Of a stretch of 64,000 nt of DNA, positions 3,569 through 23,007 are shown piece by piece. The stretch is taken from assembly GCA_016795155.1 (NCBI GenBank), contig JAEUIE010000025.1:1-64000 (forward strand), in the 5' to 3' direction. Position 1 is the stretch's first letter; each line of letters starts with the position of its first letter. The notes beneath the pieces are model-generated. The model was not told the DNA's origin. It saw nothing but the letters and a program-made list of their open reading frames with translations, and made no database searches. This DNA is from Planctomycetia bacterium (GTDB lineage Bacteria; Planctomycetota; Planctomycetia; Gemmatales; HRBIN36). Made by a program: the position numbers and the translations under genes.

Positions 3569-4879
3569 TTACAACTCCCCCAGTACCCCATTACTATCCC
3601 CAAACCGTTTCTGCTGAATCCCCAGCCTTTGCAGCATGGCGACGTAGAGATTAGTGATCGGCGTATTGAAGGCGTACTTCACATGTCGGCCCGGGTTCAG
3701 GCTGCCGCCAGCTTTACCGAAGAGGAGAATGGGAAGCTGGTCGTGGTTATGGCGGTTGCCATCGCCGATGCCTGAGCCGTAAAGGAGCATCATGTTATCG
3801 AGCAGGGTGCCGTTGCCTTCCTTGACCGACTTCAGCTTGCCGATGAGGTAGGCCAGATGTTCCAGATGGAACTGGTTGATCTTGGCGATCTTCTCGTGCT
3901 TGGCCTTGTCGCCGCCGTGATGCGACAGGTCGTGGTGCCCTTCGGGCACGCCAATGAACTTGTAGCTGCGGTTGCTGCCTTCGTTGGCAAAAACAAAAGT
4001 GCTGAAGCGGGTGATGTCAGCCTGGAAGGCGAGAACCTGCAGATCAGCCAGGGCCTTCATGTGGTCGCTGTATTCCTTGGGAATGCCGGTAGGCTTTTCC
4101 GTGGGCACTTTGATCTTGGCGTTTTCCTGCTTGTTGCGGTTGAGTCGGCTTTCCATCTCGCGGATGGAAGTGAGGTACTCATCGAGCTTGCGTTTATCAG
4201 AGCCGCCCAGTTGTTTTTCCAGCGAATGTGCGTCGTGGAGAACGGCGTCGAGCACGCTGCGGCGTTCATCGTGATTCTTGGGTGTACCGTACAGTCTTTC
4301 GAAAAGCTGCTTGGGGTCAACTTCCTTGGGCATCGGCGTTTGTTCAGAACGCCAGGAAAGGTTGTTGGAGTAGGCACAGGAGTAACCTGAATCACAGTTG
4401 CCAGCGTTCATGCCCTTGTCGCAGCCAATTTCCAGCGAAGGCAGCTTGGTGTGATGGCCGAGTTGGGAAGCAGCTACCTGATCTACCGACATGCCGATGC
4501 GGATATCAGCGCCAGCGGTTTTCTTGGGTTGGCTGCCTGTAAGAAATGCCGACATGGCACGGGCATGGTCGCCGGGGCCATCGCCGTTGGCACGGGCCTT
4601 GTCGCAAGTCAGGCCGCTGAGCACGCTGAAGTCATTCTTGAATTCAGCGAGCTTGGCGAGCGAGGGAGTGAGTTCATAATTGGCACCTTCACTATGTGGT
4701 GTCCAATCTTCCATATGGATGCCATTGGGTACATAGACGAATGCCATCCGCAGCGGAGCCTTGACGGTTTCAGCGGCAGAAGCCATCACCCCGCCGGGCA
4801 ACATGCCTTCCAGGAAAGGCAGGGCAATAGACGCGGTTACACCCTTGAGCATCGTTCGGCGGGAAATCGGCTCTCTCAT
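3569..4879 (-). CDS. DUF1552 family secreted protein
   Basis: The 436-residue protein belongs to the DUF1552 family, which is abundant in planctomycetes and related to sulfatase/DUF1501-like folds; its reaction is unknown. It begins SRRTMLKG followed by a hydrophobic stretch, a twin-arginine export signal, so it is probably folded before export to the periplasm. The body shows family blocks such as FVYVPNGIHMEDW, SVDQVAASQLG, LLDNMMLLYGSGIGDGN and NRHNHDQLPILLFGKAGG. Its ATG overlaps the stop codon of the DUF1592-type gene upstream by 4 bases, so the two are translationally coupled. In planctomycetes these two families are regularly paired and probably form one secreted or surface system. Confidence 0.9.
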   Translation of the reverse strand: MREPISRRTMLKGVTASIALPFLEGMLPGGVMASAAETVKAPLRMAFVYVPNGIHMEDWTPHSEGANYELTPSLAKLAEFKNDFSVLSGLTCDKARANGDGPGDHARAMSAFLTGSQPKKTAGADIRIGMSVDQVAASQLGHHTKLPSLEIGCDKGMNAGNCDSGYSCAYSNNLSWRSEQTPMPKEVDPKQLFERLYGTPKNHDERRSVLDAVLHDAHSLEKQLGGSDKRKLDEYLTSIREMESRLNRNKQENAKIKVPTEKPTGIPKEYSDHMKALADLQVLAFQADITRFSTFVFANEGSNRSYKFIGVPEGHHDLSHHGGDKAKHEKIAKINQFHLEHLAYLIGKLKSVKEGNGTLLDNMMLLYGSGIGDGNRHNHDQLPILLFGKAGGSLNPGRHVKYAFNTPITNLYVAMLQRLGIQQKRFGDSNGVLGEL

Positions 4880-7215
4880 ATTCCACTCCGGATGTTACGG
4901 CGTTTCTGGAACGGTTCACTCTTGACGATCTCTTGAATCAGGGCACTGAGCGTATCGCCCCGCTTTTGGGCCGCTTGTGCTATCTCGGCAAGATGCGGTC
5001 GATCACTCGACACGATTCCACGCCCTATAGCAAAGGTTACCATCTTTTCAGTCAGACAACGACGAAAATCTTCATCACGCTGCTTCAAAAGGACCACCAA
5101 TTCCTGGGGCGACTTGAACGATTGCCCGCTCGGCAAGGTGCCAGCCGGGTCTACCGGATCGCTGCCATCCTTGGTGCGCCAGGTGCCGACGGCATCGAAA
5201 TTCTCGAAGCCAAAGCCAATAGGATCCATGCGTTGATGGCAGGTAGCACAGTTGGGGTTCACCCTATGCTGTTCCATGCGCTGACGCAGAGTGCCTTTGA
5301 GTTCCTCTGTTTCTTTTAGTTCAGGAACATCAGGCGGTGGCGGCGGAGGTGGGGTGCCGAGGATCGTTTCCAGTACCCACTTCCCTCGCTTCACCGGCGA
5401 CGTACGTGTCGGGTTCGAGGTCATAGTCAGGATGCTGGCATGCGTCAAGATGCCTCGACGGGGAGTCTCCTTCAAACTGACTTTTCGGAAATCGAGACCT
5501 TTGACCTCTTTCAGACCGTAATGCTTCGCCAGCCGTTCGTTCACGAACGTGAAGTCTGCATCAAGGAAGGTGGTGATGGGTAAATCCCTTACCAGCAGTT
5601 CCTGGAAGAAGAGTTCGGTTTCCTTCTGCATGGCCTGGCGGAGCGGTTCATCGAACGTGGGGAATCGCTTGGGATCGGGTGTGGCCTGCTGCAGGTTGCG
5701 CAGTTGCAGCCATTGCCCGGCAAAGTTCTCAACCAGAGCAAGGGCTTTGGGGTCGCGGAGCATCCGGCGGGCCTGAAGCTGAAGAACTTCAGGGTCTTTG
5801 AGCTTGCCTTGTTTGGCCAGGTTGAAGAGCGTTTCATCAGGCATACTGCTCCAGATGAAATACGACAACCTGCTGGCCAATTCGTAATCGTTCAGGCTCC
5901 GTACAGATGCGGTGCTGTCGTCCTTCTCGACACGGAAGAGGAAGTGAGGCGAGATCAGGATGGCCTGCAACGGAAGTTTGTGTGCTTCTTCAAAATTAGC
6001 GCCGCGCTGGCTGGCTTGGTCAAACAGTTTCATCAATCGATCAGTTTCGCTAGTGGATACAGGCCGCCTGAAGGCACGTTCAGCGAGTTGATGTAGATTG
6101 CGGCGGGCTGCTTCACGTGCAGACACTTTTTCGGCTGGAATGGTTCTCAATACAGGATGCAGCACCGCCACCGGCGTTGCATCCGTCGGCCCTTCTATCA
6201 TCATGCCGACAATGATGAGGTTGCGATCACGCTGCTTTTCATCCTTGAGCGTGGGATCATAGAAATCATTGGTGAATGCAAGTGAAACCTTGTGCTGGCC
6301 TTCTTTTACCTGCACTTCAACTTCATAAGTCTTGCGGGGATCTTTGTCGGCTTCCACCGCTGAAATGTTAAATGTTTTGACGACTTTGTTATCGAGTTTC
6401 AGATCGAGTTTAGGCGGTTCGTTGCCCGCCTGTTGTCCGAAGGCACGCACACGTAGAGTATACTTGCCCGTCTTGGGAAATGGAAACTCGACATGCACTT
6501 CGGCATTGGTGTTCAATGCACGAAACTGATTGTTCTTGCTGAATGCTGAACCCACATTGCGAGGCTGCAACTCGCGGCCTTGAAAGCGTCGCTGCGTGCC
6601 AGACACCGGCTTGGCCACAGGTTTCATCGCCTGATCGGCAACCCGTTCTGCCGCGTTCAAATACTTTTCCAGCAATAGTGGCGGCAATGTCAGCACATCG
6701 CCAATGTTGTCGAACCCGTAGCCGACATCATCAGCAGGGAAATCATCAGCAGGTTTGAAATCGACTCCGAGCAAATCACGAATCGTGTTGTTGTACTCGT
6801 TGCGATTGAGCCGCCGCATGGTCACGCGGCCAGGGTCGCGTTTGCCTTGCAATTCTGAGCGTACCAGGGCAGCTTCCAGCCAGGCTGTCAGTTTGTCCCG
6901 CTCAGGCATGGAGGGCTGGGGCTTGTTCGCCGGGGGCATATCGCCATGCTTGACATTCTGAACCAGGGCGTGAAGCAACTCCGTCTTGGTGTTGAATGCT
7001 TCGGCATTTGGAAACGCTTCAAGATTGAGATCGCCCTTGGGCTTCTTTCCACCATGACAACTGATGCAATACTGCTTGAAGAGTGGAACAATCTGCGCTT
7101 GGTACTCATCAGCTTGCCCGGAAAACGGTTCGAGGGCAGAACCTGTCTGCAGGCATACAGCCATGCAAATACAGGCAACAAAACAAGCTATGGTGATGAT
7201 CACCACACAACGCAT
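4876..7215 (-). CDS. PSCyt-type protein, DUF1587/1595/1592/1588/1585
   Basis: The 779-residue exported protein has an N-terminal hydrophobic signal (about 1-28) and then a cytochrome-like domain with CISCH (residues 50-54). The blocks RRLNRNEYNNTIRDLLGVD (DUF1587), RAFRRPVSTSETDRL (DUF1595), LASRLSYFIWSSMPDE (DUF1592), GILTHASILTMTSNPTRTSPVKRG (given here as a longer block at about 590-613, DUF1588) and CATCH at about 656-660 with RMDPIGFGFENFDAVG (DUF1588/1585) follow in the usual order. Two CXXCH sites suggest covalent heme. The enzymatic role of these planctomycete proteins is not established; biopolymer breakdown or redox function has been suggested. It forms a two-gene operon with the DUF1552 gene, overlapping by 4 bases. 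Confidence 0.9.
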   Translation of the reverse strand: MRCVVIITIACFVACICMAVCLQTGSALEPFSGQADEYQAQIVPLFKQYCISCHGGKKPKGDLNLEAFPNAEAFNTKTELLHALVQNVKHGDMPPANKPQPSMPERDKLTAWLEAALVRSELQGKRDPGRVTMRRLNRNEYNNTIRDLLGVDFKPADDFPADDVGYGFDNIGDVLTLPPLLLEKYLNAAERVADQAMKPVAKPVSGTQRRFQGRELQPRNVGSAFSKNNQFRALNTNAEVHVEFPFPKTGKYTLRVRAFGQQAGNEPPKLDLKLDNKVVKTFNISAVEADKDPRKTYEVEVQVKEGQHKVSLAFTNDFYDPTLKDEKQRDRNLIIVGMMIEGPTDATPVAVLHPVLRTIPAEKVSAREAARRNLHQLAERAFRRPVSTSETDRLMKLFDQASQRGANFEEAHKLPLQAILISPHFLFRVEKDDSTASVRSLNDYELASRLSYFIWSSMPDETLFNLAKQGKLKDPEVLQLQARRMLRDPKALALVENFAGQWLQLRNLQQATPDPKRFPTFDEPLRQAMQKETELFFQELLVRDLPITTFLDADFTFVNERLAKHYGLKEVKGLDFRKVSLKETPRRGILTHASILTMTSNPTRTSPVKRGKWVLETILGTPPPPPPPDVPELKETEELKGTLRQRMEQHRVNPNCATCHQRMDPIGFGFENFDAVGTWRTKDGSDPVDPAGTLPSGQSFKSPQELVVLLKQRDEDFRRCLTEKMVTFAIGRGIVSSDRPHLAEIAQAAQKRGDTLSALIQEIVKSEPFQKRRNIRSGI

Positions 7216-10520: not shown

Positions 10521-10829
10521 TCATGCTGGCAGTTCAGGCTGTTCCATGCGTACGATTTTGTACTGCTGTCCCTGTCGGATAATGGTGTCGCACCAGTTCT
10601 TTTCTTCAAAACGGTAATGAATCTGAATGGCTCGTGAAACTCCCTGTCGAAATCGTTCGATAGCCTGGGTGCTATCCACAGGTTCCTCATTGATGTGCTC
10701 ATTCGGAGCGTGTTTTTCCTGCACACCCAATATGACACCGTGTTGTCGTAAATTGCGTATCAGTTCATCAAGGGTTTCCTGATCGACGAGTGCATTCCAG
10801 AGATCAGGCAAGGGAGCATCCTGGTTCAT
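10521..10829 (-). CDS. Unknown 102-residue protein coupled to napB-like gene
   Basis: The product is a soluble, acidic protein (MNQDAPLPDLWNAL...) with no signal peptide, no membrane helix and no heme motif. The start at 10829 overlaps the stop of the napB-like gene by 4 bases (ATGA), which implies coupled translation and a role connected with nitrate reduction, perhaps in maturation or regulation. I do not recognise the family. It ends one base from the stop codon of the convergent hydrolase gene, so there is no room for a conventional terminator between them. Confidence 0.7.
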   Translation of the reverse strand: MNQDAPLPDLWNALVDQETLDELIRNLRQHGVILGVQEKHAPNEHINEEPVDSTQAIERFRQGVSRAIQIHYRFEEKNWCDTIIRQGQQYKIVRMEQPELPA

Positions 10830-11638
10830 GGCCGCTCCTTCAGGAACTCCACCTGGTCGAGTTGTGCAGACGGGGCATGACACTGGGTACAGTTAGTCAG
10901 CCAGGGATGGGTGGTTCTGATGCCAGGCCGGGCAATCAGTCCATGACAGCTGGTGCAATCCTGCCTCATCCAGGTAGTGTGCGGAATGGTAGGTGGCGCT
11001 CCAGGCCAAGCTCGCGTTCCTGGTCCTGCTCGATCAGTGCCATGAAAATTATTCTCGGCCAAAATGGTCGTTGCCCAAGGAGTTTGCGTGCGATCACCTT
11101 CCACATGACATTGCGTGCAATTGGTGTAATGAGGATGGCTGACCTTGGTGGCAATACGATCACCCACCACAATTCCCTGTACATGGCAAGCCAGGCAACT
11201 GACGGCACTGCTCTGCGTGATGCCATGCGGAATGACAGGGGGTGCAGAATCATATGCACGTACACGTGCACGATCAGCTAACGCAGCAAGTTTCATTTCA
11301 TCCGTACGAACGACAGGATCGAAAGGCCCTGGTTTGGGAAACTTGAAATCACTTAAGTGTGATGTCATGCCTGCATTGGCCTGTTGTCGTGCAACCGGCA
11401 TTTCGCTGTAGCGAACAGCCTGTGGTACATCGGGCCTGGTAGTTCGTTCACTATTCCGCACCGGTGATGTCAGCGGGGCAGGTTCTGTGATCCCTCGAAT
11501 ATAACCGACCAGCGTGATACCGAGCACTATGACCACAATCAGGGAGAGAAATCGACGGACGAACAACGGCGTACGCAGTCTGCTGTCCACTGGAGTGGTT
11601 GTAGGCTCGTGGGATGGATGGGGTTGCGCGGAATTCAT
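10826..11638 (-). CDS. napB: NapB-like tetraheme cytochrome c subunit of periplasmic nitrate reductase
   Basis: NapB passes electrons to the catalytic subunit NapA in the periplasm. This 270-residue protein has an N-terminal membrane anchor (about 27-48) and four CXXCH heme sites (first Cys at 148, 174, 228, 250) instead of the two normal in NapB. The sequence looks internally duplicated: RAYDSAPPVIPH (127-138) precedes the first heme pair and RAWPGAPPTIPH (209-220) precedes the second, and both pairs end with NCTQCH. The first half also has the NapB-like NNFHG tail (196-200). The ATG at 11638 was chosen because GGAG lies about 8 bases upstream; it overlaps neither the napA stop nor a longer in-frame start. 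It lies directly downstream of napA. Confidence 0.8.
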   Translation of the reverse strand: MNSAQPHPSHEPTTTPVDSRLRTPLFVRRFLSLIVVIVLGITLVGYIRGITEPAPLTSPVRNSERTTRPDVPQAVRYSEMPVARQQANAGMTSHLSDFKFPKPGPFDPVVRTDEMKLAALADRARVRAYDSAPPVIPHGITQSSAVSCLACHVQGIVVGDRIATKVSHPHYTNCTQCHVEGDRTQTPWATTILAENNFHGTDRAGPGTRAWPGAPPTIPHTTWMRQDCTSCHGLIARPGIRTTHPWLTNCTQCHAPSAQLDQVEFLKERP

Positions 11639-11657
11639 GACATCAACTCCCTGGCAT

Positions 11658-14114
11658 CTAAACCTTAACCACTCTTGCTGCACATTTCTTATAGTCAGGT
11701 TGTTTGCTGTACGGACAATGTTCTTCGAGAGTCAGCAGATTGCACAGGAGCTTTTCATCGAAGAAGGGAATGAATAGGTGTCCCGGCGGACATTGCCCTC
11801 GGCCATCAACCCAGGCAGGCAGGGTCAATTTTCCACGTCGCGTTTCCAGTCTGATGGAATCTCCAGTCTTGACACCCAAGGCTGAAGCATCCTGCCTGCT
11901 GATTTCCACATAAGCCCCCGGCATGGCACGGCGAAGTTGGGGCACTCTCATCGTCATGGTGCCAGTATGCCAGTGTTCCAGAACTCTGCCGGTATCGAGC
12001 CAGAATGGATAGTCGCCATCAGGCACTTCAGGCGGTGGAACATAGGGCCTGAACCAGATCAGTGCTTTATCATCTTTGGTGACTGAGTGATAGAACTGCA
12101 ATCCCTTTCCATGTTTCACGTAACTATCCTGACCCTCGATGAACCGGTATCGTGTCTCCTTCCAGCTGCCGTCTGATTGCTGTACCACCGGCCAGCGCAG
12201 GCCACGTGCTTTCGTCAGTTCAACGTAGGGTGCAACATCCTTGTGTTTTATTTTGGTGAATTGCCGATACTCTTCATAGAGTTTTTCATCGACGTTGATT
12301 TTGCCGTAGTAGTTTTCCCACTTCCAGCATTCGACTTCTTTGCCGTCTTTGTCTGTCATGCGGAAAAGGAATTTTCCATCGGCATCTTTCATACCGGTGT
12401 GGCCCAGTTCAAATAGCTTGTGAGCGACAGCAATGGTTTGCCAGCAGTCATCACGTGCCTGTCCTGGAGGTGGTACCATCTTGAACCATTGGTGTGTTCG
12501 CCTTTCTGAGTTGCCATACACACCGTTCTTTTCGACCCACAATGCAGAGGGCAGAATGAGATCAGCCAGTTCAGTCGTAGCAGTTGGGTAAACATCGGAG
12601 ACAATGAGAAACTTGTTTTCCAGTCCCTGTTTTCCACGGAACAGCTTATTCAAATTAGGTAGCGATTGCCCCGGATTAGTGACTTGAACCCAGAGGGTGT
12701 CAATATCGCCCCCTTTCTCCGAAGGAGTGCAGAATTTCTCCCACATCTGGACCGTGTGGTAACCGGGCTTGGGGTTAATACGGCCATCAGGCAGATGCCA
12801 GAGCTTTTCAGCCTTTGCTTTCTGTTCAGGGATATCAACCCGTAAATCGCCCGGCAGTGCATGGCACAGCGTGCCAACCTCGCGGACTGTGCCGCACGCT
12901 GAAGGTTGGCCTGTCAGACTCTGTGGACCATCTCCTGGTTTGCCAAAGTGACCACTCAGTAAGTGAATACCGTGTACCAGATTATTGATGGCTGTGCCCA
13001 TCGTGTGCTGGTTCATGCCCATGCACCACAGGCTGAGAATTTTCAGCTTGGGATTGCTGAAGAGGTCGCCCAGCAGCTTGAGTTGGTCAACGCTCAGTCC
13101 GCTGATTTCACTGACTTTTTCAGGGGTGTAGGGTGCCAGCATCTTCTGGTAATCTTCAAATGTGATGGGTTTTCCCATCAGAGTGCCAAAGGTTTTGTAA
13201 TCTGCCCAGTCCTTAAGCTGCTCGTAACGTTCGGGTGGAGCATCAGCACGAAAGTTGCAGTATTTCGACACAAAATCCTGGCTGTAGGTTTTGCGGGCGA
13301 TCAATTGTTGAGCAATGCAGTTAGCTACTGCGAGGTCGCTATGAGGTTTCACCAGTAGAAAATGATCAGCCTGCTCGGTAGTGCGGGTACGACGATAACC
13401 CATGTCGATGAGCATCACCTTCTCGCCACGCAGTCTGCGGTCAATGATCCTGCTGAATAACACAGGGTGCATCTCGGCAGGATTGTTCCCCCACAGGATT
13501 ACGACATCGGCGTGATCGAGATCGTCGTAACAGTTGTAAGGTTCATCCACACCAAAGGTGCTGATGTAACCAGTGACTGCGGATGCCATGCACAATCGGG
13601 CATTAGGTTCGATGTGATTGTTGCTCAGACCAGCCTTCATGAACTTGTTGGCGGCATATCCTTCAGGCACGGTCCATTGCCCGGAGCCATAAAGAGCAAA
13701 CTTCTCCGGAGCTTGATGAATACGCTGGGCAATGGTGTTGATTGCTTCTTCCCAACTGATGGGTTCGAGCTTGCCATTCCTTCGCAGCATTGGTGTCGTC
13801 AATCGATCTTTGCCATAAAGGATAGACCCGACATGGTAGCCTTTGACGCACAGCAGTCCTTTATTCACTTCTGCCTGGCGATCACCTGCGATGGCAACGA
13901 CGCGATTATCCTTGACTGCAACCTGCACGTGACAGCCTGTACCGCAGAATCGGCAAGGCGCCTTGTTCCAGGTGACATCAGGTATCACCGGCAGTTCCTG
14001 TCGTGGGGGCTGTTTGGCAGTAGCAGTAGTGGTTGCGCGTTCTGCGGCCAGTGCGGTGGCAGCAGCCAGGGCCGAAGACTTCAGGAAATGTCGACGATGC
14101 AATTCAAGCGACAT
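11658..14114 (-). CDS. napA: Periplasmic nitrate reductase catalytic subunit
   Basis: NapA reduces nitrate to nitrite at a Mo-bis-MGD centre in the periplasm. The 818-residue protein begins with a twin-arginine signal (HRRHFLKSS). The [4Fe-4S] ligands are C54, C57, C61 and C89 (CRFCGTGCHVQV ... GLLCVKG). The molybdenum-ligating cysteine is C175 in NARLCMASAV, followed by TFGVDEPYNCYDD as in proteobacterial NapA. Later molybdopterin-binding blocks include LWGNNPAEMHPVLF, WCMGMNQHTMG and the C-terminal HWHTGTMTMRVPQL. Length is as expected. It follows napD (11-base overlap) and precedes the napB-like gene, in one minus-strand operon. Confidence 0.96.
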   Translation of the reverse strand: MSLELHRRHFLKSSALAAATALAAERATTTATAKQPPRQELPVIPDVTWNKAPCRFCGTGCHVQVAVKDNRVVAIAGDRQAEVNKGLLCVKGYHVGSILYGKDRLTTPMLRRNGKLEPISWEEAINTIAQRIHQAPEKFALYGSGQWTVPEGYAANKFMKAGLSNNHIEPNARLCMASAVTGYISTFGVDEPYNCYDDLDHADVVILWGNNPAEMHPVLFSRIIDRRLRGEKVMLIDMGYRRTRTTEQADHFLLVKPHSDLAVANCIAQQLIARKTYSQDFVSKYCNFRADAPPERYEQLKDWADYKTFGTLMGKPITFEDYQKMLAPYTPEKVSEISGLSVDQLKLLGDLFSNPKLKILSLWCMGMNQHTMGTAINNLVHGIHLLSGHFGKPGDGPQSLTGQPSACGTVREVGTLCHALPGDLRVDIPEQKAKAEKLWHLPDGRINPKPGYHTVQMWEKFCTPSEKGGDIDTLWVQVTNPGQSLPNLNKLFRGKQGLENKFLIVSDVYPTATTELADLILPSALWVEKNGVYGNSERRTHQWFKMVPPPGQARDDCWQTIAVAHKLFELGHTGMKDADGKFLFRMTDKDGKEVECWKWENYYGKINVDEKLYEEYRQFTKIKHKDVAPYVELTKARGLRWPVVQQSDGSWKETRYRFIEGQDSYVKHGKGLQFYHSVTKDDKALIWFRPYVPPPEVPDGDYPFWLDTGRVLEHWHTGTMTMRVPQLRRAMPGAYVEISRQDASALGVKTGDSIRLETRRGKLTLPAWVDGRGQCPPGHLFIPFFDEKLLCNLLTLEEHCPYSKQPDYKKCAARVVKV

Positions 14115-14373
14115 GATGTGCCTCCTGTTCTACGGTGCAATCATCCTCGAACGCAACATAAGCAACATGCACTTGTTGAACCCCTTCGAGGCAGGCGAGT
14201 TCATCATGCCAGCGCTGTGCGTCTTCTGCGGTATCTGTTTCCAATACTAAAGGCAGGCGATTTTCAATGACTTGACCGAGTGTGCATTGTACCATGTTGT
14301 TCAAATGACAAAGCACAGCATCGGATATCTGACGTTGTGGATCAAATTCGAGTACCAGGCCACAGAGTTGCAT
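14104..14373 (-). CDS. napD: NapD, chaperone for NapA export
   Basis: NapD is a small cytoplasmic protein that binds the twin-arginine signal peptide of NapA and holds it until the cofactor is inserted. The 89-residue product has the ferredoxin-like NapD pattern: an N-terminal strand MQLCGLVLEFDP, a conserved central VLETDTAEDAQ block and a C-terminal LEGVQQVHVAYVAFED strand. It overlaps the start of napA by 11 bases and is the first gene of the nap operon, reading away from the divergent promoter region. Assignment rests on size, pattern and position. Confidence 0.85.
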   Translation of the reverse strand: MQLCGLVLEFDPQRQISDAVLCHLNNMVQCTLGQVIENRLPLVLETDTAEDAQRWHDELACLEGVQQVHVAYVAFEDDCTVEQEAHHVA

Positions 14374-14429
14374 AATGGTAACCCCACTCGAATGCTAACA
14401 CAGATACTGTAGCCGGTATATCGTCGATA

Positions 14430-14457
14430 TCAAGAATAAAAGAATAATTATTCTTGA
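14430..14457. promoter_or_regulatory. Candidate operator of triple AAGAATAA half-sites
   Basis: The only promoter region between the nap and nrf operons holds TCAAGAATAA (14430-14439), then AAGAATAA (14440-14447), then TTATTCTTGA (14448-14457). The outer arms are a perfect 10-bp inverted repeat; the middle unit plus the right arm form a perfect 16-bp palindrome AAGAATAATTATTCTT (14440-14455). It lies 48 bases before the start of the tetraheme cytochrome gene and about 57 bases before napD. Rrf2-family regulators such as NsrR bind AT-rich dyads of similar type, and an Rrf2 gene is in the adjacent operon, so it is the likely binder; this is inferred. Confidence 0.6.
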
Positions 14458-14505
14458 TTTATCCAGCCGATGGTGTATTGTGACTGTGCAGTGAGGAGGT
14501 GCATC

Positions 14506-15156
14506 ATGTTATCTCCGTGGTTTTCGCTATTCCGGAAAGTCCTCAAAATACTTTTCGCTGTAATAGCTGCTGTCTGCTCGTCTTGTTCCAGGACCGACAA
14601 TGCAGAGAAGACTAATACAGCTGCGGTGGAAGCAGCCATAGTTGAAGCGCAGTACAGCACCTTCATTCGTAAGCCTGCCGGTCCGCCTACTGTCAAAACG
14701 GATATGCTGGATCATCACGGCTCCCCCATTTCCGTAGCCTGTAATACCTGCCATACGACAAGGCCTGCCAACCACGAAGCCAAGATCGGTACCGTACTAC
14801 TGCAGTTTCATCAGGGCATCAAAGGGGCGCATGGCAACTTGAACTGCGTGGCGTGCCACCATCCTGATGAAGGCTATCAGTCGCTCCGTCTCGCCAATGG
14901 AAAATCGCTTCCTTATACGGAAGTCATGCAGCTTTGTGCCCAATGTCATGGCCCGCAGTATCGTGATTACCAGCATGGTGCACATGGTGGGATGAATGGC
15001 TACTGGGATCTGTCACGTGGCAACCGTTACCGTAACAATTGCATTGATTGCCACAATGCACATGCTCCCAAATTCCCGACGCTGCAACCTGCACCCGGCC
15101 CCATCAATCCCCATGCTTCTCAAACCAGCGGAATGCAAGGAGCAGGCCATGAGTAA
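14506..15156 (+). CDS. Periplasmic tetraheme cytochrome c (NrfB-like role)
   Basis: The 216-residue protein has an N-terminal hydrophobic export segment (about 12-24) and four CXXCH heme sites (first Cys at 79, 114, 144, 179). Its position before a four-cluster ferredoxin and an NrfD-like protein matches the NrfB-NrfC-NrfD arrangement, although NrfB of enterobacteria has five hemes and is not clearly related in sequence. It probably receives electrons from the membrane complex and delivers them to NrfA or the Nap enzyme. Cysteines at 24 and 27 might mark a lipoprotein, but the lipobox is poor. The ATG at 14506 has GAGGAGG just upstream, which decides against an earlier in-frame ATG at 14470. 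It overlaps the next gene by 8 bases. Confidence 0.85.
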   Translation: MLSPWFSLFRKVLKILFAVIAAVCSSCSRTDNAEKTNTAAVEAAIVEAQYSTFIRKPAGPPTVKTDMLDHHGSPISVACNTCHTTRPANHEAKIGTVLLQFHQGIKGAHGNLNCVACHHPDEGYQSLRLANGKSLPYTEVMQLCAQCHGPQYRDYQHGAHGGMNGYWDLSRGNRYRNNCIDCHNAHAPKFPTLQPAPGPINPHASQTSGMQGAGHE

Positions 15157-16078
15157 AAAAGTGAACCTGCCTGTTCTGGGTGAAGTCAATCGCCGCACTC
15201 TGGTGAAAGCAGGTGCTGCGACATTGGGTGTAGGGCTCCTGGCGAAGGCACTCCAACCAATGATGGAGTGGACCGCTAACATGAGCACGGATGAGTTCCT
15301 GCAAAAACACTACAAGGAACTTGATGCTGCAGAAAAGCAGCGTGTGCTTCGCCGCCTTTCAGAAGAGGCTCAAAAGGAATACGGCGTCAATGTTAAGATC
15401 AAGGATCCACAGCCTCAACGTGGTGTTAAATATGCTTATGCCCTGAACCTGAGTGTTTGCACCGGTTGCCGCAAATGTGCTGAAGCCTGCACCATCGAAA
15501 ACAACCACGATAGGGCGAGTAATAACAGCTACATTCGCGTCTACGAAATGCAGAAGGGTGGCATTGATTTCTCCAAAGGCAATTGCAATTACGATCACCC
15601 AGTACCCGCACCTGACAAATTCTACATGCCGGTGCAGTGTCAGCAGTGTAATAATCCGCCTTGCGTTTCGGTTTGCCCGGTAGAAGCCACGTGGAAGGAG
15701 CCCGATGGTCTGGTAGTGGTTGATTACAACTGGTGCATTGGCTGTCGGTATTGTGAAGCAGCCTGTCCTTACCATGCCCGTCGCTTCAATTGGACTAAGC
15801 CCGAAGTACCAGCGAAAGAGATGAATCCCAACCAGGGATATCTCTCTAACCGGGTACGTCCCCAGGGGGTAATGGAAAAGTGTACCTATTGTCTGCATCG
15901 TGTTCGCGAAGGCAGGCTGCCTGCCTGTCTGGAAGCCTGCCCGACAGGAGCTCGTGTCTTTGGCAATATTCTCGATCCAAAATCCGAGATTCGATGGATC
16001 ATTGATAACAAGCGTGTGTTCGTTCTCAAGGAAGAACTCGGCACTCAACCGAGTTTCTTCTATTTCTTTGATAAATAA
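15149..16078 (+). CDS. Four-cluster [4Fe-4S] ferredoxin subunit (NrfC/PsrB-type)
   Basis: The 309-residue protein belongs to the DmsB/NrfC/PsrB family of electron-transfer subunits. It begins with a twin-arginine-like segment (NRRTLVKAG, then a hydrophobic stretch), suggesting that it faces the periplasm. Four cysteine groups are seen: CTGCRKCAEAC, CQQCNNPPCVSVCP, CIGCRYCEAACPYHAR and CTYCLHRV...CLEACPTGA, enough for four [4Fe-4S] clusters. A helical insert (about 45-90) precedes the first cluster. It should pass electrons between the NrfD-like quinol-oxidising protein encoded next and the tetraheme cytochrome encoded before it. Confidence 0.9.
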   Translation: MSKKVNLPVLGEVNRRTLVKAGAATLGVGLLAKALQPMMEWTANMSTDEFLQKHYKELDAAEKQRVLRRLSEEAQKEYGVNVKIKDPQPQRGVKYAYALNLSVCTGCRKCAEACTIENNHDRASNNSYIRVYEMQKGGIDFSKGNCNYDHPVPAPDKFYMPVQCQQCNNPPCVSVCPVEATWKEPDGLVVVDYNWCIGCRYCEAACPYHARRFNWTKPEVPAKEMNPNQGYLSNRVRPQGVMEKCTYCLHRVREGRLPACLEACPTGARVFGNILDPKSEIRWIIDNKRVFVLKEELGTQPSFFYFFDK

Positions 16079-16091
16079 TCGGAGGTGCACG

Positions 16092-17381
16092 ATGAGTTCT
16101 CTTGCTGCCTCCCCTCAGAATCAGCCTTCAGCTATTCTCAGTTATCCCCGTTTTCTGAGGCTGGCATTACATGTCGCGACAGAAGGCAAATGGCTGTTTT
16201 ACCTCTGGATGACCATTCTGACCGGTGTCGCTCTGGTCGGCGCCAATGCCTGGGCGGTGCAGGTGCGTGATGGTATGGCCCGTACCGGCATGAGCGATCA
16301 TGTCAGTTGGGGGCTTTACATCGCCAACTTCACCTTCTTTGTCGGATTGGCAGCAGGTGGGGTCATGATGGTGATTCCAGCCTACCTGTATCACGATCAT
16401 GAGATGCACGATGTGGTGATCGTTGGGGAAATTCTTGCCATTGCAGCCATCATTATGAGTACGCTTTCTGTCGTGGTGGATCTCGGAAGACCGGATCGCT
16501 TCTGGCATCTCATTCCTGGCATAGGCAGATTCAACTGGCCCATTTCCATGCTCACTTGGGATGTCATCGTCCTCAATGGATATCTCCTCATCAATCTCCA
16601 TATTGTTGGTTATCTGCTCTACATGCGATTTCTGGGCCGACAGCCGAACCCAAAGTGGTACATTCCGTTCGTGTTTCTTTCCATCATCTGGGCAATCAGC
16701 ATTCATACCGTGACGGCGTTCCTGTACTGTGGATTGGGTGGCAGACCGTTCTGGAACACCGCCCTCCTGGCTCCGCGTTTTCTGGCATCTGCTTTTGTTT
16801 CCGGTCCGTCATTCATCATTCTTCTGCTGATGGTTATTCGTTATTCCAGCCGCTTTGCAGTGCCTGATAAAGCAGTCAACACGCTGGTACAGATCATCCG
16901 TATTTCCATGTGCATCAACCTGCTCATGCTGGTTTCAGAATTGTTCACCATCTTCTATACCGGAGGTGGGCACCTGGCTTCTGCCAAATATCTGTTCTTT
17001 GGTGATCATGGTCACTACGGTCTAGTACCCTGGATCTGGACGTCGATTGCCTGCAGTGTATTAGGCTGCATTCTGTTTCTCAGCCCGTGGGTCTTTAGCA
17101 AGACATGGGTTCTATTAGGCGCCTGTGTGCTTTGCATCGTCGGAATATGGATCGAGAAAGGAATGGGTTTGATCATTCCAGGTTTTGTGCCATCGACTCT
17201 GCATGAAATGGTGGAATATACTCCCAGCTTGACGGAATGGAAAATCACTGCTGGCATCTGGGCGTTCGGTCTGATGATACTGACGGTTATTCTGAAGATT
17301 GCCATCGCTGTGTTTGGTGGTGAAATGAAACTGGAGGAAACGAAGAGTCAGTCTTCACAGCCCGATCTTCAAACTCCATGA
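16092..17381 (+). CDS. nrfD: NrfD/PsrC-family membrane quinol dehydrogenase subunit
   Basis: The 429-residue integral membrane protein oxidises membrane quinol and passes electrons to its ferredoxin partner. About nine or ten hydrophobic helices are visible across the chain, and the early block WGLYIANFTFFVGLAAGG resembles the conserved helix of NrfD/PsrC/DmsC-like proteins. The start at 16092 is preceded at good spacing by GGAGGTG. It follows the ferredoxin gene after 13 bases. Similar modules are used by polysulfide reductase, NrfABCD and alternative complex III; the gene order with nrfHA makes nitrite or nitrate respiration the likeliest role here. Confidence 0.88.
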   Translation: MSSLAASPQNQPSAILSYPRFLRLALHVATEGKWLFYLWMTILTGVALVGANAWAVQVRDGMARTGMSDHVSWGLYIANFTFFVGLAAGGVMMVIPAYLYHDHEMHDVVIVGEILAIAAIIMSTLSVVVDLGRPDRFWHLIPGIGRFNWPISMLTWDVIVLNGYLLINLHIVGYLLYMRFLGRQPNPKWYIPFVFLSIIWAISIHTVTAFLYCGLGGRPFWNTALLAPRFLASAFVSGPSFIILLLMVIRYSSRFAVPDKAVNTLVQIIRISMCINLLMLVSELFTIFYTGGGHLASAKYLFFGDHGHYGLVPWIWTSIACSVLGCILFLSPWVFSKTWVLLGACVLCIVGIWIEKGMGLIIPGFVPSTLHEMVEYTPSLTEWKITAGIWAFGLMILTVILKIAIAVFGGEMKLEETKSQSSQPDLQTP

Positions 17382-17425
17382 TCGAATGTGATTTTGCACC
17401 GCTTGAGGTTAACCAGGATTCAGCC

Positions 17426-17884
17426 ATGTTCTCGTACAGCAAAACAACACAATATGCGATTGCTGCAGCGAGCAGGCTGGCAGAAGTGTACGATGACAAA
17501 ATCAAGTTGAGTTCCATGGATATTGCCCATGATCGCGGATTGCCCAAGCCAGTGGTTGCTAAGGTATTAACTGTGTTGTCACAAGCAGGAATTGTTACCG
17601 GCTCACCAGGCCCCGGAGGTGGTTATACACTTGCTGAATCGCCTGAGAAAATCACTCTGCACCGCGTCGCAGAGTGCTTTGATCGATTGGAACAACCATT
17701 GACCTGTCCGTTTGGTCCGGGATACTGTGGTACGGGTAATCCCTGTCCGTTGCATCATCAACTGGTCAATTTGCAGGAGCAGTTCTCTCGCTTTCTGAAG
17801 AATAACTCACTGGCATCTTTCAGAAAAAAAGGACAGGGTGCTAAACTCCTGGAGTTGATTCCTCCCCGGAGGAAATCGTCATGA
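17426..17884 (+). CDS. Rrf2-family iron-sulfur transcription regulator (NsrR-like)
   Basis: The 152-residue protein has the Rrf2 winged-helix DNA-binding domain ([17 protein letters not shown]; recognition region [17 protein letters not shown]; wing [11 protein letters not shown]). Three cysteines in the C-terminal part (C94, C101, C107, in [19 protein letters not shown]) match the cluster-ligating triad of NsrR, IscR and RsrR. NsrR loses repression when nitric oxide attacks its cluster, which would suit a gene buried in a nitrite reductase operon. It overlaps nrfH by 4 bases. The ATG at 17426 begins the conserved domain, so the longer open frame upstream was not used. Whether it senses NO, oxygen or iron is not settled by sequence. 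Confidence 0.85.
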
Positions 17885-18363
17885 AAGGACTGATCCTCTG
17901 GTTGGCTGGGGGCAGCATTATTTCAATGATCTTGTGGTGCCTGCTGGGAATACTGCTCGGTGCCGGTGCGTACACGGTTTATTATGGGGAAGGGCTATCG
18001 TATCTCAGCAGCGACCCAAAAGCCTGTGTGAACTGTCACATCATGCGGGAACAGTACGATGAATGGCAGAAAGCCAGTCATCATGCCGCTGCCAGTTGTG
18101 TCGATTGTCATCTACCGCATGATCCATTAGGCAAGTGGATCGCCAAAGCCGAGAATGGATTCTGGCATTCCAAGGGATTTACTCTTCAGGATTTTCATGA
18201 GCCTATTCGCATACACAATAAAAATGCAACTATTCTGCAGGCGAATTGTGTGAGATGTCATCAGGATTTTGTTCATCAGATAACCACTATCAAGCCATCA
18301 GAATCAAACACTGTTCATTGCGTCCACTGTCATAACCATGTAGGACACGGGCCTTCACGCTGA
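17881..18363 (+). CDS. nrfH: NrfH, membrane-anchored tetraheme quinol dehydrogenase
   Basis: NrfH takes electrons from menaquinol in the membrane and hands them to the nitrite reductase NrfA. The 160-residue protein has one N-terminal membrane helix (about 7-32) and four CXXCH motifs (first Cys at 49, 73, 123, 147). The first is followed by a Met two residues on (CVNCHIM), the hallmark Met ligand of heme 1 in NrfH. Length matches the NapC/NirT-NrfH family. It overlaps the Rrf2 gene by 4 bases and lies 20 bases before nrfA. Confidence 0.93.
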
Positions 18364-18383
18364 AGTAATGCAAAGGAGCCACT

Positions 18384-19838
18384 GTGACAAACTCAACTGC
18401 CTCTACAACCTCATCCTGGTCACGTTCTTCCTGGTCGGGGAAGCTGTTGCTATGTCTGCTGGTGGCAGCGGCTACCATCGGTGTCATGCTGCTTTGGCAG
18501 AACATTGCTGAGCGCAAGCAGGAAGCGTTGCAGAATGTTTTCAAAGTGGTGGAAGTCACAGAGGATACGATAGATCCAGCCATCTGGGGGAAGAACTATC
18601 CCCGACAATATGACAGCTACAGTAGAACGGTTGATGTTGAACGAACCCGACATGGAGGTTCGGAAGCATTTCAGAAACTGGATGATGACCCCCGCTGGCG
18701 AATACTGTTCAAAGGATATGCCTTCGGAGTTGATTATCGCGAGGAACGTGGGCATGCCTACATGCTCAAGGATCAGGAAGAAACCGAACGCGTCAAGAAC
18801 TTCAAGCAACCCGGCGCCTGTCTGCACTGCCATGCTTCCGTTCTGACTGCCTATCAGCAGACAGGAGTGAAGGCTGGCATTCCTAACGATGCAGCACATC
18901 GGCAACAGGCCATCATGAAAGGATTTGAAGAAGTCTGCGCCATGCCCTATGCCGAGGCAAACAAACTGGTTTCTCATCCTGTCAGTTGCGTTGATTGTCA
19001 TGATCCTGCCACGATGGCACTGCGTGTCACCCGTCCTGGTTTCATCAATGGTATGCAGGTGCTGGCACAGTCGAGCGATCCGTTGCCCCATCTCCCAAGC
19101 GTGGAACGCTGGCGCAAAGGATCACGGAAAACGCCCTACGATCCGAATCTCGAAGCCAGCAGGCAGGAAATGCGTTCCATGGCTTGTGCTCAGTGCCATG
19201 TGGAGTATTACTTCAAAGGCGAAAAGAAATTGCTGACATACCCCTGGCACAAAGGATTGAAGGCTGACCAGATTGAAGAATACTACGATGAAGTGGGCTG
19301 GAAAGACTGGGTGCATGCTGATTCCGGTGCTCCGGTTCTCAAAGCTCAACATCCCGAATTTGAACTCTGGTCGCAAGGCATCCATGCTCGTTCCGGCGTT
19401 TCCTGTGCCGATTGTCACATGCCTTATAAACGTGAAGGTGCTATCAAGGTTAGTGACCATCACATCCGGAGCCCGATGCTCAACATCTCGCGTGCTTGTC
19501 AGACCTGCCATCATTACCCTGAGCAGGAAATTCTGAGCCGGGTGAATGCCATTCAAGACCGCACGAAGAACCTGATGCTGCGGGCAGAGAATGCCACGGT
19601 CGATCTGATCAAGGCATTGAATGAGGCAGGCAAGCAGGGCAAAAACGATGAACAACTGAAAGCGGTTCGTGCACTTCATCGCAAAGCGCAGTGGCGTCTA
19701 GATTTCATCGCTGCAGAAAACTCAACGGGTTTCCATGCCCCACAGGAATCAGCCAGGCTGCTGGGTGAAGCCATCGATTTCGCCCGCCAGGGGCAGATCA
19801 AACTGCTTGAAGTAAATAAGCCGACTGGAAAACCTTAA
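18384..19838 (+). CDS. nrfA: Ammonia-forming cytochrome c nitrite reductase
   Basis: NrfA reduces nitrite to ammonium with six electrons in the periplasm. The 484-residue protein has an N-terminal hydrophobic anchor or signal (about 20-38) and five heme sites (first Cys at 146, 202, 268, 341, 372). The active-site residues are seen: Arg122 in ERGHAYM, Tyr275/276 in CHVEYYF after heme 3, and His334 in GIHARSGVSCADCH. The catalytic heme site is CLHCH, not the CXXCK of Escherichia coli, so this belongs with the CXXCH variants. The start is GTG at 18384, with AAGGAG 7 bases upstream. Confidence 0.95.
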   Translation: MTNSTASTTSSWSRSSWSGKLLLCLLVAAATIGVMLLWQNIAERKQEALQNVFKVVEVTEDTIDPAIWGKNYPRQYDSYSRTVDVERTRHGGSEAFQKLDDDPRWRILFKGYAFGVDYREERGHAYMLKDQEETERVKNFKQPGACLHCHASVLTAYQQTGVKAGIPNDAAHRQQAIMKGFEEVCAMPYAEANKLVSHPVSCVDCHDPATMALRVTRPGFINGMQVLAQSSDPLPHLPSVERWRKGSRKTPYDPNLEASRQEMRSMACAQCHVEYYFKGEKKLLTYPWHKGLKADQIEEYYDEVGWKDWVHADSGAPVLKAQHPEFELWSQGIHARSGVSCADCHMPYKREGAIKVSDHHIRSPMLNISRACQTCHHYPEQEILSRVNAIQDRTKNLMLRAENATVDLIKALNEAGKQGKNDEQLKAVRALHRKAQWRLDFIAAENSTGFHAPQESARLLGEAIDFARQGQIKLLEVNKPTGKP

Positions 19839-19876
19839 AGTGATTTCGCTAATCCAAGCGAAAGTCGAGGTGTTCG

Positions 19877-21169
19877 ATGTTATTCAGATTCTCCCTCTCC
19901 ATCGTGCTGTTGCTGCTTGTTGCATTGACACTTTTTGCAAGCGATATCGAACGTGAACCCATTAATTATTCCAAGGCAACTCCTGACAACTTGATCAGCA
20001 GGCTGCAGGAGAAACTGGAAGCAGGCAAAGCAAGACTGAAGTACGATCCGGAACATGGCTACCTCAAAGAACTGTTACGTGAGTTCAGTATCCCACTTTC
20101 ATCTCAGGTATTGGTGTTTTCCAAAACCAGTCTGCAACGCAGCCATATCAGTCCCAAAACGCCTCGGGCCATCTATTTCAATGATGACATCTATCTTGGA
20201 TACTGCATGAATGGCAGTGTCATGGAAATTTCCGTGGCCGATTCAAAACTGGGAACGGTCTTCTACACGATCGATCAGGAACAACAATCCAAGCCTGTCA
20301 TCAAACGACAGACAGACAGTTGTCTGGTTTGCCATGCATCATCCTACAATCACGGCTTGCCCGGACATCTCGTCCGTTCGGTTTATCCTGACAGTACCGG
20401 CGAGCCACTGCTCGCATCCGGGTCGTATCGTACGGATCATACCAGTGCATTCGCTGAACGCTGGGGCGGCTGGTATGTGTCTGGTACTCATGGCAAGCAG
20501 GAACACATGGGAAATCAAATATTCAGTAAACGAAAGAATGAATCGTCAGGTAATCAACCTGCCAGCCAGAATCTGAATGATCTTTCCAGGTTCTTTACAG
20601 CTTCCATGTACCCATCGCCACACAGCGATATCGTAGCACTCATGGTCCTGGAGCACCAGACTATGGTTCATAATCGAATAACTCGTGCGTTGCTCGAAAC
20701 CCGGATGGCTCAGCACTATCAGGATGATTTGAATAAAGCACTTCAGGAAAAGCCGGGGACGGTCTTTGATTCCACAAAAAGGCGCATCGAGAATCTGGCA
20801 GATGAACTGCTGAAATGCATGCTGTTGAGCGATGAAACAAAATTGACCAATCCGATAACTGGCACCACTTCATTTGCAAAAGAATTCACGGAGAATGGTC
20901 CACGGGACAGCAAAGGTCGTTCACTCCGAGATCTCGATTTGCAAACGAGGTTGTTTAAGTATCCATGCAGTTACCTGATCTATTCCAAATCTTTCGATGC
21001 ATTACCACCGGCAGTACTAGACGTCTTCTACCAGAAACTGTTCAAAGTCTTGACTGGGAAAGATCAATCGCCTCATTTTTCACAACTCAGCGCGAGGGAT
21101 AGACAAGCAATTCTTGAGATCCTGATTCAGACTAAATCTTCTTTACCCGGTTACTGGAATAAACGATAA
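19877..21169 (+). CDS. Unknown secreted monoheme cytochrome-like protein
   Basis: The 430-residue protein has a signal peptide (about 1-21) and a single CXXCH (C149-H153, DSCLVCHASS). The region after it (HLVRSVYPD, LASGSYRTDHTSAFAERWGGWYVSG) looks like a conserved globular domain. I do not know the family. It begins 38 bases after nrfA on the same strand, so it is probably part of the nrf transcript and may be an extra electron-transfer or sensing partner of the nitrite reductase system. Confidence 0.7.
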   Translation: MLFRFSLSIVLLLLVALTLFASDIEREPINYSKATPDNLISRLQEKLEAGKARLKYDPEHGYLKELLREFSIPLSSQVLVFSKTSLQRSHISPKTPRAIYFNDDIYLGYCMNGSVMEISVADSKLGTVFYTIDQEQQSKPVIKRQTDSCLVCHASSYNHGLPGHLVRSVYPDSTGEPLLASGSYRTDHTSAFAERWGGWYVSGTHGKQEHMGNQIFSKRKNESSGNQPASQNLNDLSRFFTASMYPSPHSDIVALMVLEHQTMVHNRITRALLETRMAQHYQDDLNKALQEKPGTVFDSTKRRIENLADELLKCMLLSDETKLTNPITGTTSFAKEFTENGPRDSKGRSLRDLDLQTRLFKYPCSYLIYSKSFDALPPAVLDVFYQKLFKVLTGKDQSPHFSQLSARDRQAILEILIQTKSSLPGYWNKR

Positions 21170-21363
21170 AAAGCGCCTGGTTCCCTATATTCACATGGTC
21201 CATTCGTAGCGGATTTGCTGTCCGGAATGGATAATTCCATCAAATGCAGATTTCTTCATTCATGTAAATTGACGGGTTTCTTCACTTATGTCGATTAAAT
21301 GAGATACCGATGTCATGAATGCGGCAGGATGCTACATTCATTCTGCTCAAGGAGTGAGCGATA

Positions 21364-23007
21364 ATGTCTGTTTCGGCTTCCCGTATTGTTTGTTATCTTT
21401 CTGGCTTATTACTTGGATTTGCTGGATTTGTCTCTGTTCTAGCTGAAGATGGAACGAAGCCAGTAACACCGTCGAAACCCGAAACATCTCCTGCTATTTC
21501 GTTCGATTGCCAGTCCGATGGTTGTAGGAATTGCTGCGCGTTCGATTTTTCAAAAACACCACCCATTTGGCCAGCTCCACGAACTGGTAACTTTCCGAAT
21601 CCACCCAAAGGGCCTGGCTATTATTCGCTGTTAGACCAGATCCGAGGTGAGTACAGGGAAAATCCACCTAAGTATGGTTACCCTCCTTTTGCTTTGATGC
21701 AGTACAGTTTTTTCAACGCTGATTTTCGATATCTTGATGATCCGAAGAACACTTCGTTTGATTATTGCGATCCCATCAAGCGAATGCATCTGGGTAACAA
21801 CTGGCTCTTCTCAACAGGCGGACAGGTCTGGAACCGGTACATGAATGAAGACAACAGCCGACTGACTCATACTGACAATAACTACGATCTGTTCCGCGTT
21901 CGAGCTTATGGTGATCTCTGGTATCAGGATAAATTCCGGTTGTATGCCGAATTCATCAGCGCTCACATATTCGATCCTGATTTGCCTCAACTGCCTATTG
22001 ATGCGAATGGTGCTGATTTTCAGAACCTGTTTATTGATCTGAAAATTGCTGAACTCGATGGTAATTCAGTATATCTTCGTGTTGGTCGTCAGGAATTGCT
22101 GTATGGTTCTCAGCGACTCATCTCGACACTCGACTGGGCAAATACTCGCCGCACCTTTCAAGGTGTATCAGCACTGTATCAAAGTGAAAAGTGGGATCTG
22201 TCCGCTTTCTGGGTTCAGCCTGTATTGCCAGACAAAGAAAAGTTCGATTCTGTGGATAACAATCAGAACTTTGCAGGCTTGTGGGCAACACATCGGCCTG
22301 AAAAAGGACAGTCCATCGATCTGTACTATCTGTTCCTTGACAATACCAATGAAGTGACTCAACTCAATATGACGCGTGCTCCATACAACGTGCACACAAT
22401 GGGAAGTCGTTACTTTGGCGACAAGGATAATGTGCTTTGGGATGTGGAAGCTGCGTTGCAGTTAGGTAAACGTGGTGAAGGTCAGATTGTCGCAGGCATG
22501 GCAACAGCAGGTGCCGGGTATCATTTCTCCAATCTGCTCTTCAACCCTACCTTCTGGGTTTATTACGATTATGCAACAGGAGACAGCAATCCTAACGAGG
22601 GTAGCTACACCACATTCAACCAGCTGTTTCCATTCGGGCATTATTATCTGGGATGGGCTGACCTGGTTGGCAGGCAGAATATCCAGGATCTTAATGCCCA
22701 TCTGTATCTCTATCCAACGAATTGGATAACACTTTGGCTGCAGTACCATCACTTCCGTTTGGCAGCAAGTCAGGATGCACTCTACAACGCTGCTGGACTG
22801 GCAATCCGTCGCGATCCATCGGGTAACGCCGGCTCAGAGGTAGGAAATGAGTTTGATCTTGTCCTCAACTTTCACTTAACCAAACACTCAGATCTGATGT
22901 TTGGCTATAGCAAGCTGTATGGAGGCTCTTTTCTCGAAGAGACATCTTCAGCGGAAAAAGCTGTCAATTCAGACATGCTCTTTCTGCTCTACAGTTACCG
23001 CTGGTAG
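21364..23007 (+). CDS. Alginate-export-type outer membrane beta-barrel porin
   Basis: The 547-residue protein has an N-terminal signal (about 1-27) and the look of an outer membrane barrel: alternating polar and aromatic residues, many short strands and a C-terminal aromatic end (LYSYRW). The block RVGRQELLYGSQRLISTLDWANTRRTFQG is typical of the alginate-export (AlgE-like) porin family; it spans about residues 239-267. A cysteine-containing N-terminal segment (CQSDGCRNCCAF) is unusual. It sits 194 bases after the monoheme gene and could serve as an outer membrane channel for nitrate or nitrite, though this is inference from position. It may have its own promoter in the gap. Confidence 0.8.
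   Translation: MSVSASRIVCYLSGLLLGFAGFVSVLAEDGTKPVTPSKPETSPAISFDCQSDGCRNCCAFDFSKTPPIWPAPRTGNFPNPPKGPGYYSLLDQIRGEYRENPPKYGYPPFALMQYSFFNADFRYLDDPKNTSFDYCDPIKRMHLGNNWLFSTGGQVWNRYMNEDNSRLTHTDNNYDLFRVRAYGDLWYQDKFRLYAEFISAHIFDPDLPQLPIDANGADFQNLFIDLKIAELDGNSVYLRVGRQELLYGSQRLISTLDWANTRRTFQGVSALYQSEKWDLSAFWVQPVLPDKEKFDSVDNNQNFAGLWATHRPEKGQSIDLYYLFLDNTNEVTQLNMTRAPYNVHTMGSRYFGDKDNVLWDVEAALQLGKRGEGQIVAGMATAGAGYHFSNLLFNPTFWVYYDYATGDSNPNEGSYTTFNQLFPFGHYYLGWADLVGRQNIQDLNAHLYLYPTNWITLWLQYHHFRLAASQDALYNAAGLAIRRDPSGNAGSEVGNEFDLVLNFHLTKHSDLMFGYSKLYGGSFLEETSSAEKAVNSDMLFLLYSYRW

Follow-up and report, generated by a model that had tools for sequence, protein, structure and literature searches.

A probably NapC-independent periplasmic nitrate reductase locus with a proposed Rrf2-dyad switch in a planctomycete

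Introduction

At the quinol step, periplasmic nitrate reduction by NapC-dependent Nap is commonly held to contribute nothing to the proton gradient. A planctomycete locus in which nap genes and genes for ammonia-forming nitrite reduction (nrfHA) diverge from one control region raises the question of how NapA obtains its electrons there, and of whether the nitrate and nitrite halves form one unit. The locus occupies positions 10521-23007 of the window, by which we mean the whole stretch of 64,000 nucleotides that was analysed (contig JAEUIE010000025.1, positions 1 to 64,000). From comparison with related loci, we consider it probable that the locus encodes a NapC-independent periplasmic nitrate respiration, with an Rrf2-dyad switch acting on both operons and with nrfHA added under the same switch.

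In the proposed scheme, a DsrP/NrfD-type membrane protein would oxidise a quinol, presumably menaquinol, and electrons would pass through a 4Fe-4S protein and a tetraheme cytochrome to a double NapB anchored in the membrane and finally to NapA, the putative producer of nitrite. A presumably Fe-S-type Rrf2 regulator bound to a 28-bp dyad would cover both -35 boxes and control the two operons jointly; it would most likely be a repressor, released by a nitrogen-oxide or redox signal. With nrfHA lying behind rrf2 in the same operon, reduction of nitrite to ammonium would come under the same switch.

The locus and the conserved unit

Every gene named in a preliminary description of this DNA is intact and lies approximately where it had been placed, and several neighbouring genes overlap or almost touch. 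The genes are as follows.

10521-10829, minus strand: hyp120, small conserved protein of 102 amino acids, downstream of napB
10826-11638, minus strand: napB4, membrane-anchored tandem NapB, tetraheme (Pfam NapB, 1.7e-10)
11658-14114, minus strand: napA, periplasmic nitrate reductase catalytic subunit (NCBIfam NapA, 2e-265)
14104-14373, minus strand: napD chaperone (Pfam NapD, E=1.1e-4, full length, under the gathering score; position before napA)
14506-15156, plus strand: tetH, tetraheme c-type cytochrome (4 CXXCH)
15149-16078, plus strand: DsrO/NrfC-like periplasmic 4Fe-4S protein with RR signal (DsrO 3.6e-54, NrfC 1.4e-33)
16092-17381, plus strand: NrfD-superfamily (DsrP-like) membrane quinol dehydrogenase subunit (DsrP 2.8e-127, Pfam NrfD 2.9e-40)
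17426-17884, plus strand: Rrf2-family regulator, CX6CX5C, proposed operator-binding switch (Pfam Rrf2)
17881-18363, plus strand: nrfH, quinol dehydrogenase of NrfA (TIGR03153, 9.8e-50, above cut-off)
18384-19838, plus strand: nrfA, ammonia-forming nitrite reductase (Pfam Cytochrom_C552, 3.9e-132)
19877-21169, plus strand: monoheme protein of 430 amino acids
21364-23007, plus strand: outer-membrane porin (Alginate_exp, Pfam PF13372, 3.3e-94)

The comparison set held about 110 other loci, made up of the loci of relatives and 80 loci from named genomes; the latter were found by NapB alignment, which gave 248 matches, 80 of them kept. Among these 80 named loci, napA stands beside the double NapB in 79, and the tetraheme, FeS and NrfD genes lie near nap in 68, 65 and 63, respectively, while an Rrf2 gene is present in 25. 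About 15% of loci have no tetH nearby, partly owing to contig ends. The block napD-napA-napB-small gene adjoins tetraheme-FeS-NrfD in Planctomycetota, Verrucomicrobiota and Myxococcota; cultured carriers of the nap module include Archangium violaceum (L122) and Haloferula rosea (L153). Judged by gene order, the conserved unit is a Nap system and not nap plus nrf. Recurrence of the same order in relatives was borne out for nap with tetraheme-FeS-NrfD, whereas nrfHA lies elsewhere in nearly all of them, and the claim of a fixed nitrate-to-ammonium unit is not supported.

NapA is most similar in the PDB to NapA 3ml1_A (3e-216) and scores slightly under the NCBIfam cut-off (883 versus 904). It is a MopB subunit closest to NapA, with a Tat signal, an N-terminal 4Fe-4S site and a conserved Mo-binding Cys; the motifs NARLCMASAV and CX2CX3C are visible in its sequence, and its gene is the only NapA-like one found in the genome. 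NapA and NrfHA, the two enzymes to which nitrate and nitrite reduction had been assigned, are indeed the only dissimilatory reductases for nitrate and nitrite that could be recognised in the genome within the families searched; a genome search found neither NirK nor any NarG above cut-off, and its cytochrome-d1 matches were weak and scattered. A second, more divergent Nap (NapA about 50% identical) occurs in five planctomycete loci (L038, L039, L040, L041 and L072 of genomes G106, G043, G001, G005 and G095), mostly with a shorter double NapB and with no tetH-FeS-NrfD nearby.

The gene called "unknown" in the preliminary description is present, yet it encodes a conserved small protein that recurs in 44 of the 80 homologous loci, across three phyla. 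Residues K39, Q69, Y72, W79, D81, T82 and R94 of this protein (hyp120) are invariant, and its AF2 model has a pLDDT of 90. No known family was found for it, and a fold search of the model against the PDB gave no significant match; a PsbP/Mog1-like resemblance was weak and was not relied on. It is a probable cytoplasmic Nap accessory factor. In one Myxococcales locus (L111, 3953-4702), a NapF-like polyferredoxin gene lies between napB and the small unknown gene.

The double NapB

The product described earlier as NapB-like does belong with NapB, yet it is doubled, two NapB units standing in tandem with four CXXCH motifs in all. Its profile matches the NapB structures 3ml1_B, 1ogy_B and 1jni, and the Pfam NapB match covers the first half of the protein. 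In each half, APPxIPH is accompanied by two CxxCH motifs, and the repeat-to-repeat alignment scores 108 against a shuffle maximum of 44. The diheme NapB pattern (PPxIPH...CxxCH...CTQCH) thus occurs twice in tandem, making this a variant and not a standard diheme NapB. All 80 homologues have four CXXCH motifs, and 75 of the 80 have a hydrophobic N-terminal segment ahead of the heme motifs. An alternative GTG start lies at 11683. The structure model is poor and unusable except for a confident N-terminal helix at 40-62. On these sequence features, the protein is a tandem four-heme NapB, mostly membrane-anchored among its homologues.

The control region

Between the start of napD (14373) and that of tetH (14506) there are exactly 132 bases, as first described, and within them the following elements are recognised.

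14374-14505: divergent control region, the 132-base gap between napD and tetH
14406-14433, minus strand: predicted nap promoter (-35 TTGATA at 14433-14428, 16 bp, -10 TACAGT at 14411-14406)
14430-14457: 28-bp operator dyad TCAAGAA-N14-TTCTTGA, proposed Rrf2 site, conserved in related loci
14454-14481, plus strand: predicted promoter of the tetH operon (-35 TTGATT, 16 bp, -10 TATTGT)

The proposal that the divergent operons share one control element holds up well, as the dyad spans both -35 boxes and tracks the presence of rrf2. Since the -35 box of each divergent promoter lies in one arm of the dyad, one bound Rrf2 could block both promoters. The promoter layout is kept on the tetH side in 18 of 20 loci and on the nap side in 19 of 20, against a shuffle mean of about 1 and a maximum of 5. 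The dyad recurs in the nap gaps of relatives. This genome and five relatives each have a single exact copy, which in every case lies in the nap gap; 67 places in this genome come within two mismatches of the dyad versus 25 for a reversed control. Among named loci, the dyad scores high in 14 of the 17 with rrf2 behind NrfD versus 0 of 31 others (Fisher p 1.4e-9, treating loci as independent, with relatedness uncorrected); although a few of these 17 duplicate training genomes under a different name, most do not. The three exceptions are L088, L153 and L154, and in L112 the Rrf2 is without the cysteines of the motif, yet its site scores.

The closest solved relative of the regulator is NsrR (5n07), and the cysteine motif is kept in nearly all orthologues. 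The Rrf2 family and the three-cysteine motif are shared with NsrR and IscR, and here the regulator is local to nap. To our knowledge, the operator TCAAGAA-N14-TTCTTGA is unlike NsrR or IscR sites.

The link between Rrf2 and the dyad is correlative, and conservation of the dyad is partly explained by two back-to-back -35 boxes. It is conceivable, if unlikely, that the dyad is nothing but two overlapping sigma70 -35 elements, with another regulator controlling the operons and Rrf2 acting elsewhere. Such a reading would fit the occurrence of TTGA[AT]T in both arms with TAnnnT -10 boxes 16-17 bp away on each side, but conservation extends to the full TCAAGAA/TTCTTGA arms and to the constant 14-bp spacing between them, and loci without the rrf2 orthologue have no dyad, even when they come from the same order as this genome (L032, L034 and L035). 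A switch by Rrf2 on the dyad remains our preferred reading, and the common dyad makes the regulator directly testable and can serve as a sequence marker in searches for the system.

The three loci without rrf2 and dyad have another common motif (ACGCAGCCCGYGTGCC) upstream of tetH, which suggests a replaced regulator. Four Planctomyces-like loci (L119, L134, L144 and L151) have no dyad; between their tetH and napA stands another Rrf2-like gene, which is more distantly related.

Electron supply to NapA

The tetH product has four CXXCH motifs, as do all 10 homologues checked; it is weakly NrfB-like and does not match the DsrJ model. The FeS protein comes close to the DsrO cut-off (183.7 versus 200 bits). 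The gene labelled nrfD is present, yet its product scores above the curated DsrP cut-off (424.9 versus 350 bits). With NrfD above the DsrP cut-off and FeS near DsrO, the module may work like NrfBCD or DsrJOP while belonging to neither operon type.

The preliminary description had counted ferredoxin and nrfD as parts of nrf, which the distribution of the module does not support. The three genes stay with napA-napB4 across three phyla, and they keep to napA where nrfHA is absent or distant, including the nrfA-free genomes G013, G035 and G051. The module is tied to napA, not to NrfA as in NrfABCD. Five of 11 nap-bearing relatives (G013, G035, G051, G061 and G097) encode no PF03264 protein at all; one of them, G013, is a single contig and 97% complete. 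All five retain tetraheme-FeS-NrfD beside nap where contigs reach. In the remaining nap-bearing relatives, the strong PF03264 matches are NrfH wherever their place was checked, and in this genome NrfH is the only NapC/NirT-family protein. Because the module stays with napA without nrfHA, and because five nap genomes lack NapC and NrfH altogether, tetH-FeS-NrfD is the likely menaquinol dehydrogenase for NapA. We therefore caution that these nrfD and ferredoxin genes should not be annotated as nitrite-reductase parts.

In genomes that possess it, NrfH might conceivably pass electrons to NapB as well. That NrfH is the quinol dehydrogenase common to NapB/NapA and NrfA, with tetH-FeS-NrfD doing something else, such as passing electrons from a periplasmic donor to quinone, is quite unlikely: promiscuity within the NapC/CymA family is known in Shewanella (PMC12285233) and NrfH has no NapC-family companion in this genome, but the five relatives without NapC or NrfH keep nap all the same, with the module beside it as far as their contigs reach.

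Comparison with known systems

Canonical Nap (NapDABC of E. coli, Rhodobacter and Cupriavidus) has NapA, NapD and NapB-type heme units in common with the present system. Here, however, the cluster has no NapC and no NapGH, NapB is tandem, anchored and tetraheme, and quinol would be oxidised by an FeS-NrfD-type module. NapC is also absent from the Nap of Wolinella, which uses NapGH (Simon et al. 2003 as cited in PMC12285233), and from napMADGH of Thermosulfurimonas, which uses NapGH and in which NapM replaces NapB (PMC5276818); the present locus has no NapGH but a tetraheme cytochrome together with a module of DsrOP/NrfCD type. NrfABCD of E. coli likewise combines a multiheme cytochrome, FeS and NrfD as quinol dehydrogenase module, but in the present case the module sits with NapA and NrfA has its own NrfH. 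With the DsrJOP part of DsrMKJOP, our locus shares the DsrP-type membrane subunit and an FeS protein close to DsrO, whereas the gene cluster has no DsrMK or triheme DsrJ, the cytochrome is tetraheme and the partner is Nap.

A cluster of the same kind, MHC-4Fe4S-NrfD beside nap, was reported in 2023 in the MAGs OFTM8 and OFTM33; a figure legend there names an iron-dependent regulator, and the authors proposed a nitrite reductase or general respiratory role (PMC10732223). The available parts of that paper do not describe the double NapB, the dyad, the absence of NapC or the conservation in three phyla. Our search of the open-access literature turned up neither a tetraheme tandem NapB nor the 28-bp operator.

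It has been proposed in the literature that NrfD-like subunits translocate ions (PMC8076601). It is possible, at somewhat less than even chances, that these loci represent a distinct and widespread class of nitrate respiration in three phyla, in which NapA is served through an anchored double NapB by a possibly ion-translocating NrfD/DsrP-type dehydrogenase, more energy-conserving than NapC, with an Fe-S Rrf2 switch in part of the class and repeated recruitment of nrfHA. With an NrfD-type donor, nitrate respiration and DNRA could yield a different amount of energy in these three phyla, which are abundant and poorly cultured.

Recruitment of nrfHA

The locus encodes NrfH together with a pentaheme NrfA, in which heme 1 is bound by CXXCH (CLHCH) and not by the usual but not universal CXXCK. 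NrfAs with CXXCH that perform DNRA are known (PMC12285233). In most relatives, nrfHA is a separate two-gene cassette, 4.7 Mb from nap in the complete genome G108, and only 5 of the 80 named loci have it within reach of nap. Where the genes are linked, arrangements differ: L116 and L161 have tetH-FeS-NrfD-nrfH-nrfA with no rrf2, and in L135 and L143 nrfHA lies behind napB. On the NrfA tree, four transitions between the linked and the unlinked state are needed, one linked case (L107) being about 6 kb away, and on this evidence nap-nrf linkage is a trait that arose several times independently. The window's NrfA falls together with the unlinked NrfA of its own family; the gene thus appears to be native and relocated, not imported. 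Since the start of nrfH lies inside the stop of rrf2, in a four-base ATGA overlap, nrfHA probably joined the nap operon in this genome. Such repeated capture makes it possible to study when users of nitrate turn into producers of ammonium.

The monoheme gene and the porin

The monoheme protein had been taken for a part of the island. It has no Pfam or NCBIfam match, and its family occurs in 34 of 61 relatives irrespective of nap and near nap in 3 of 80 loci. Its gene was rejected as a nap or nrf component, being mostly without nap nearby and having no porin beside it in 24 relatives. The protein belongs to a general planctomycete family and is probably a neighbour rather than a part.

That the whole island is integrated, with ferredoxin-NrfD-tetraheme as an NrfBCD-like module feeding NrfA and with the monoheme protein and porin dedicated to it, is very unlikely: gene order in the window, the weak NrfB likeness of tetH and the placing of nrfHA beside the module in L116 and L161 fit it, but the module stays with napA in the nrfA-free genomes, nap-bearing relatives possessing nrfHA have it elsewhere, NrfH already serves NrfA, and the monoheme family is general. 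Of the preliminary interpretation as a whole, the shared control element has survived, while the fixed unit, ferredoxin-nrfD as part of nrf and the monoheme cytochrome have not.

The porin lies near nap in 11 of 80 loci, in varying positions, which is only suggestive of a dedicated outer-membrane channel for nitrate or nitrite (anion). Beside the island, positions 3569-7215 of the window hold planctomycete PSD/PSCyt (DUF1592 etc.) and DUF1552 genes.
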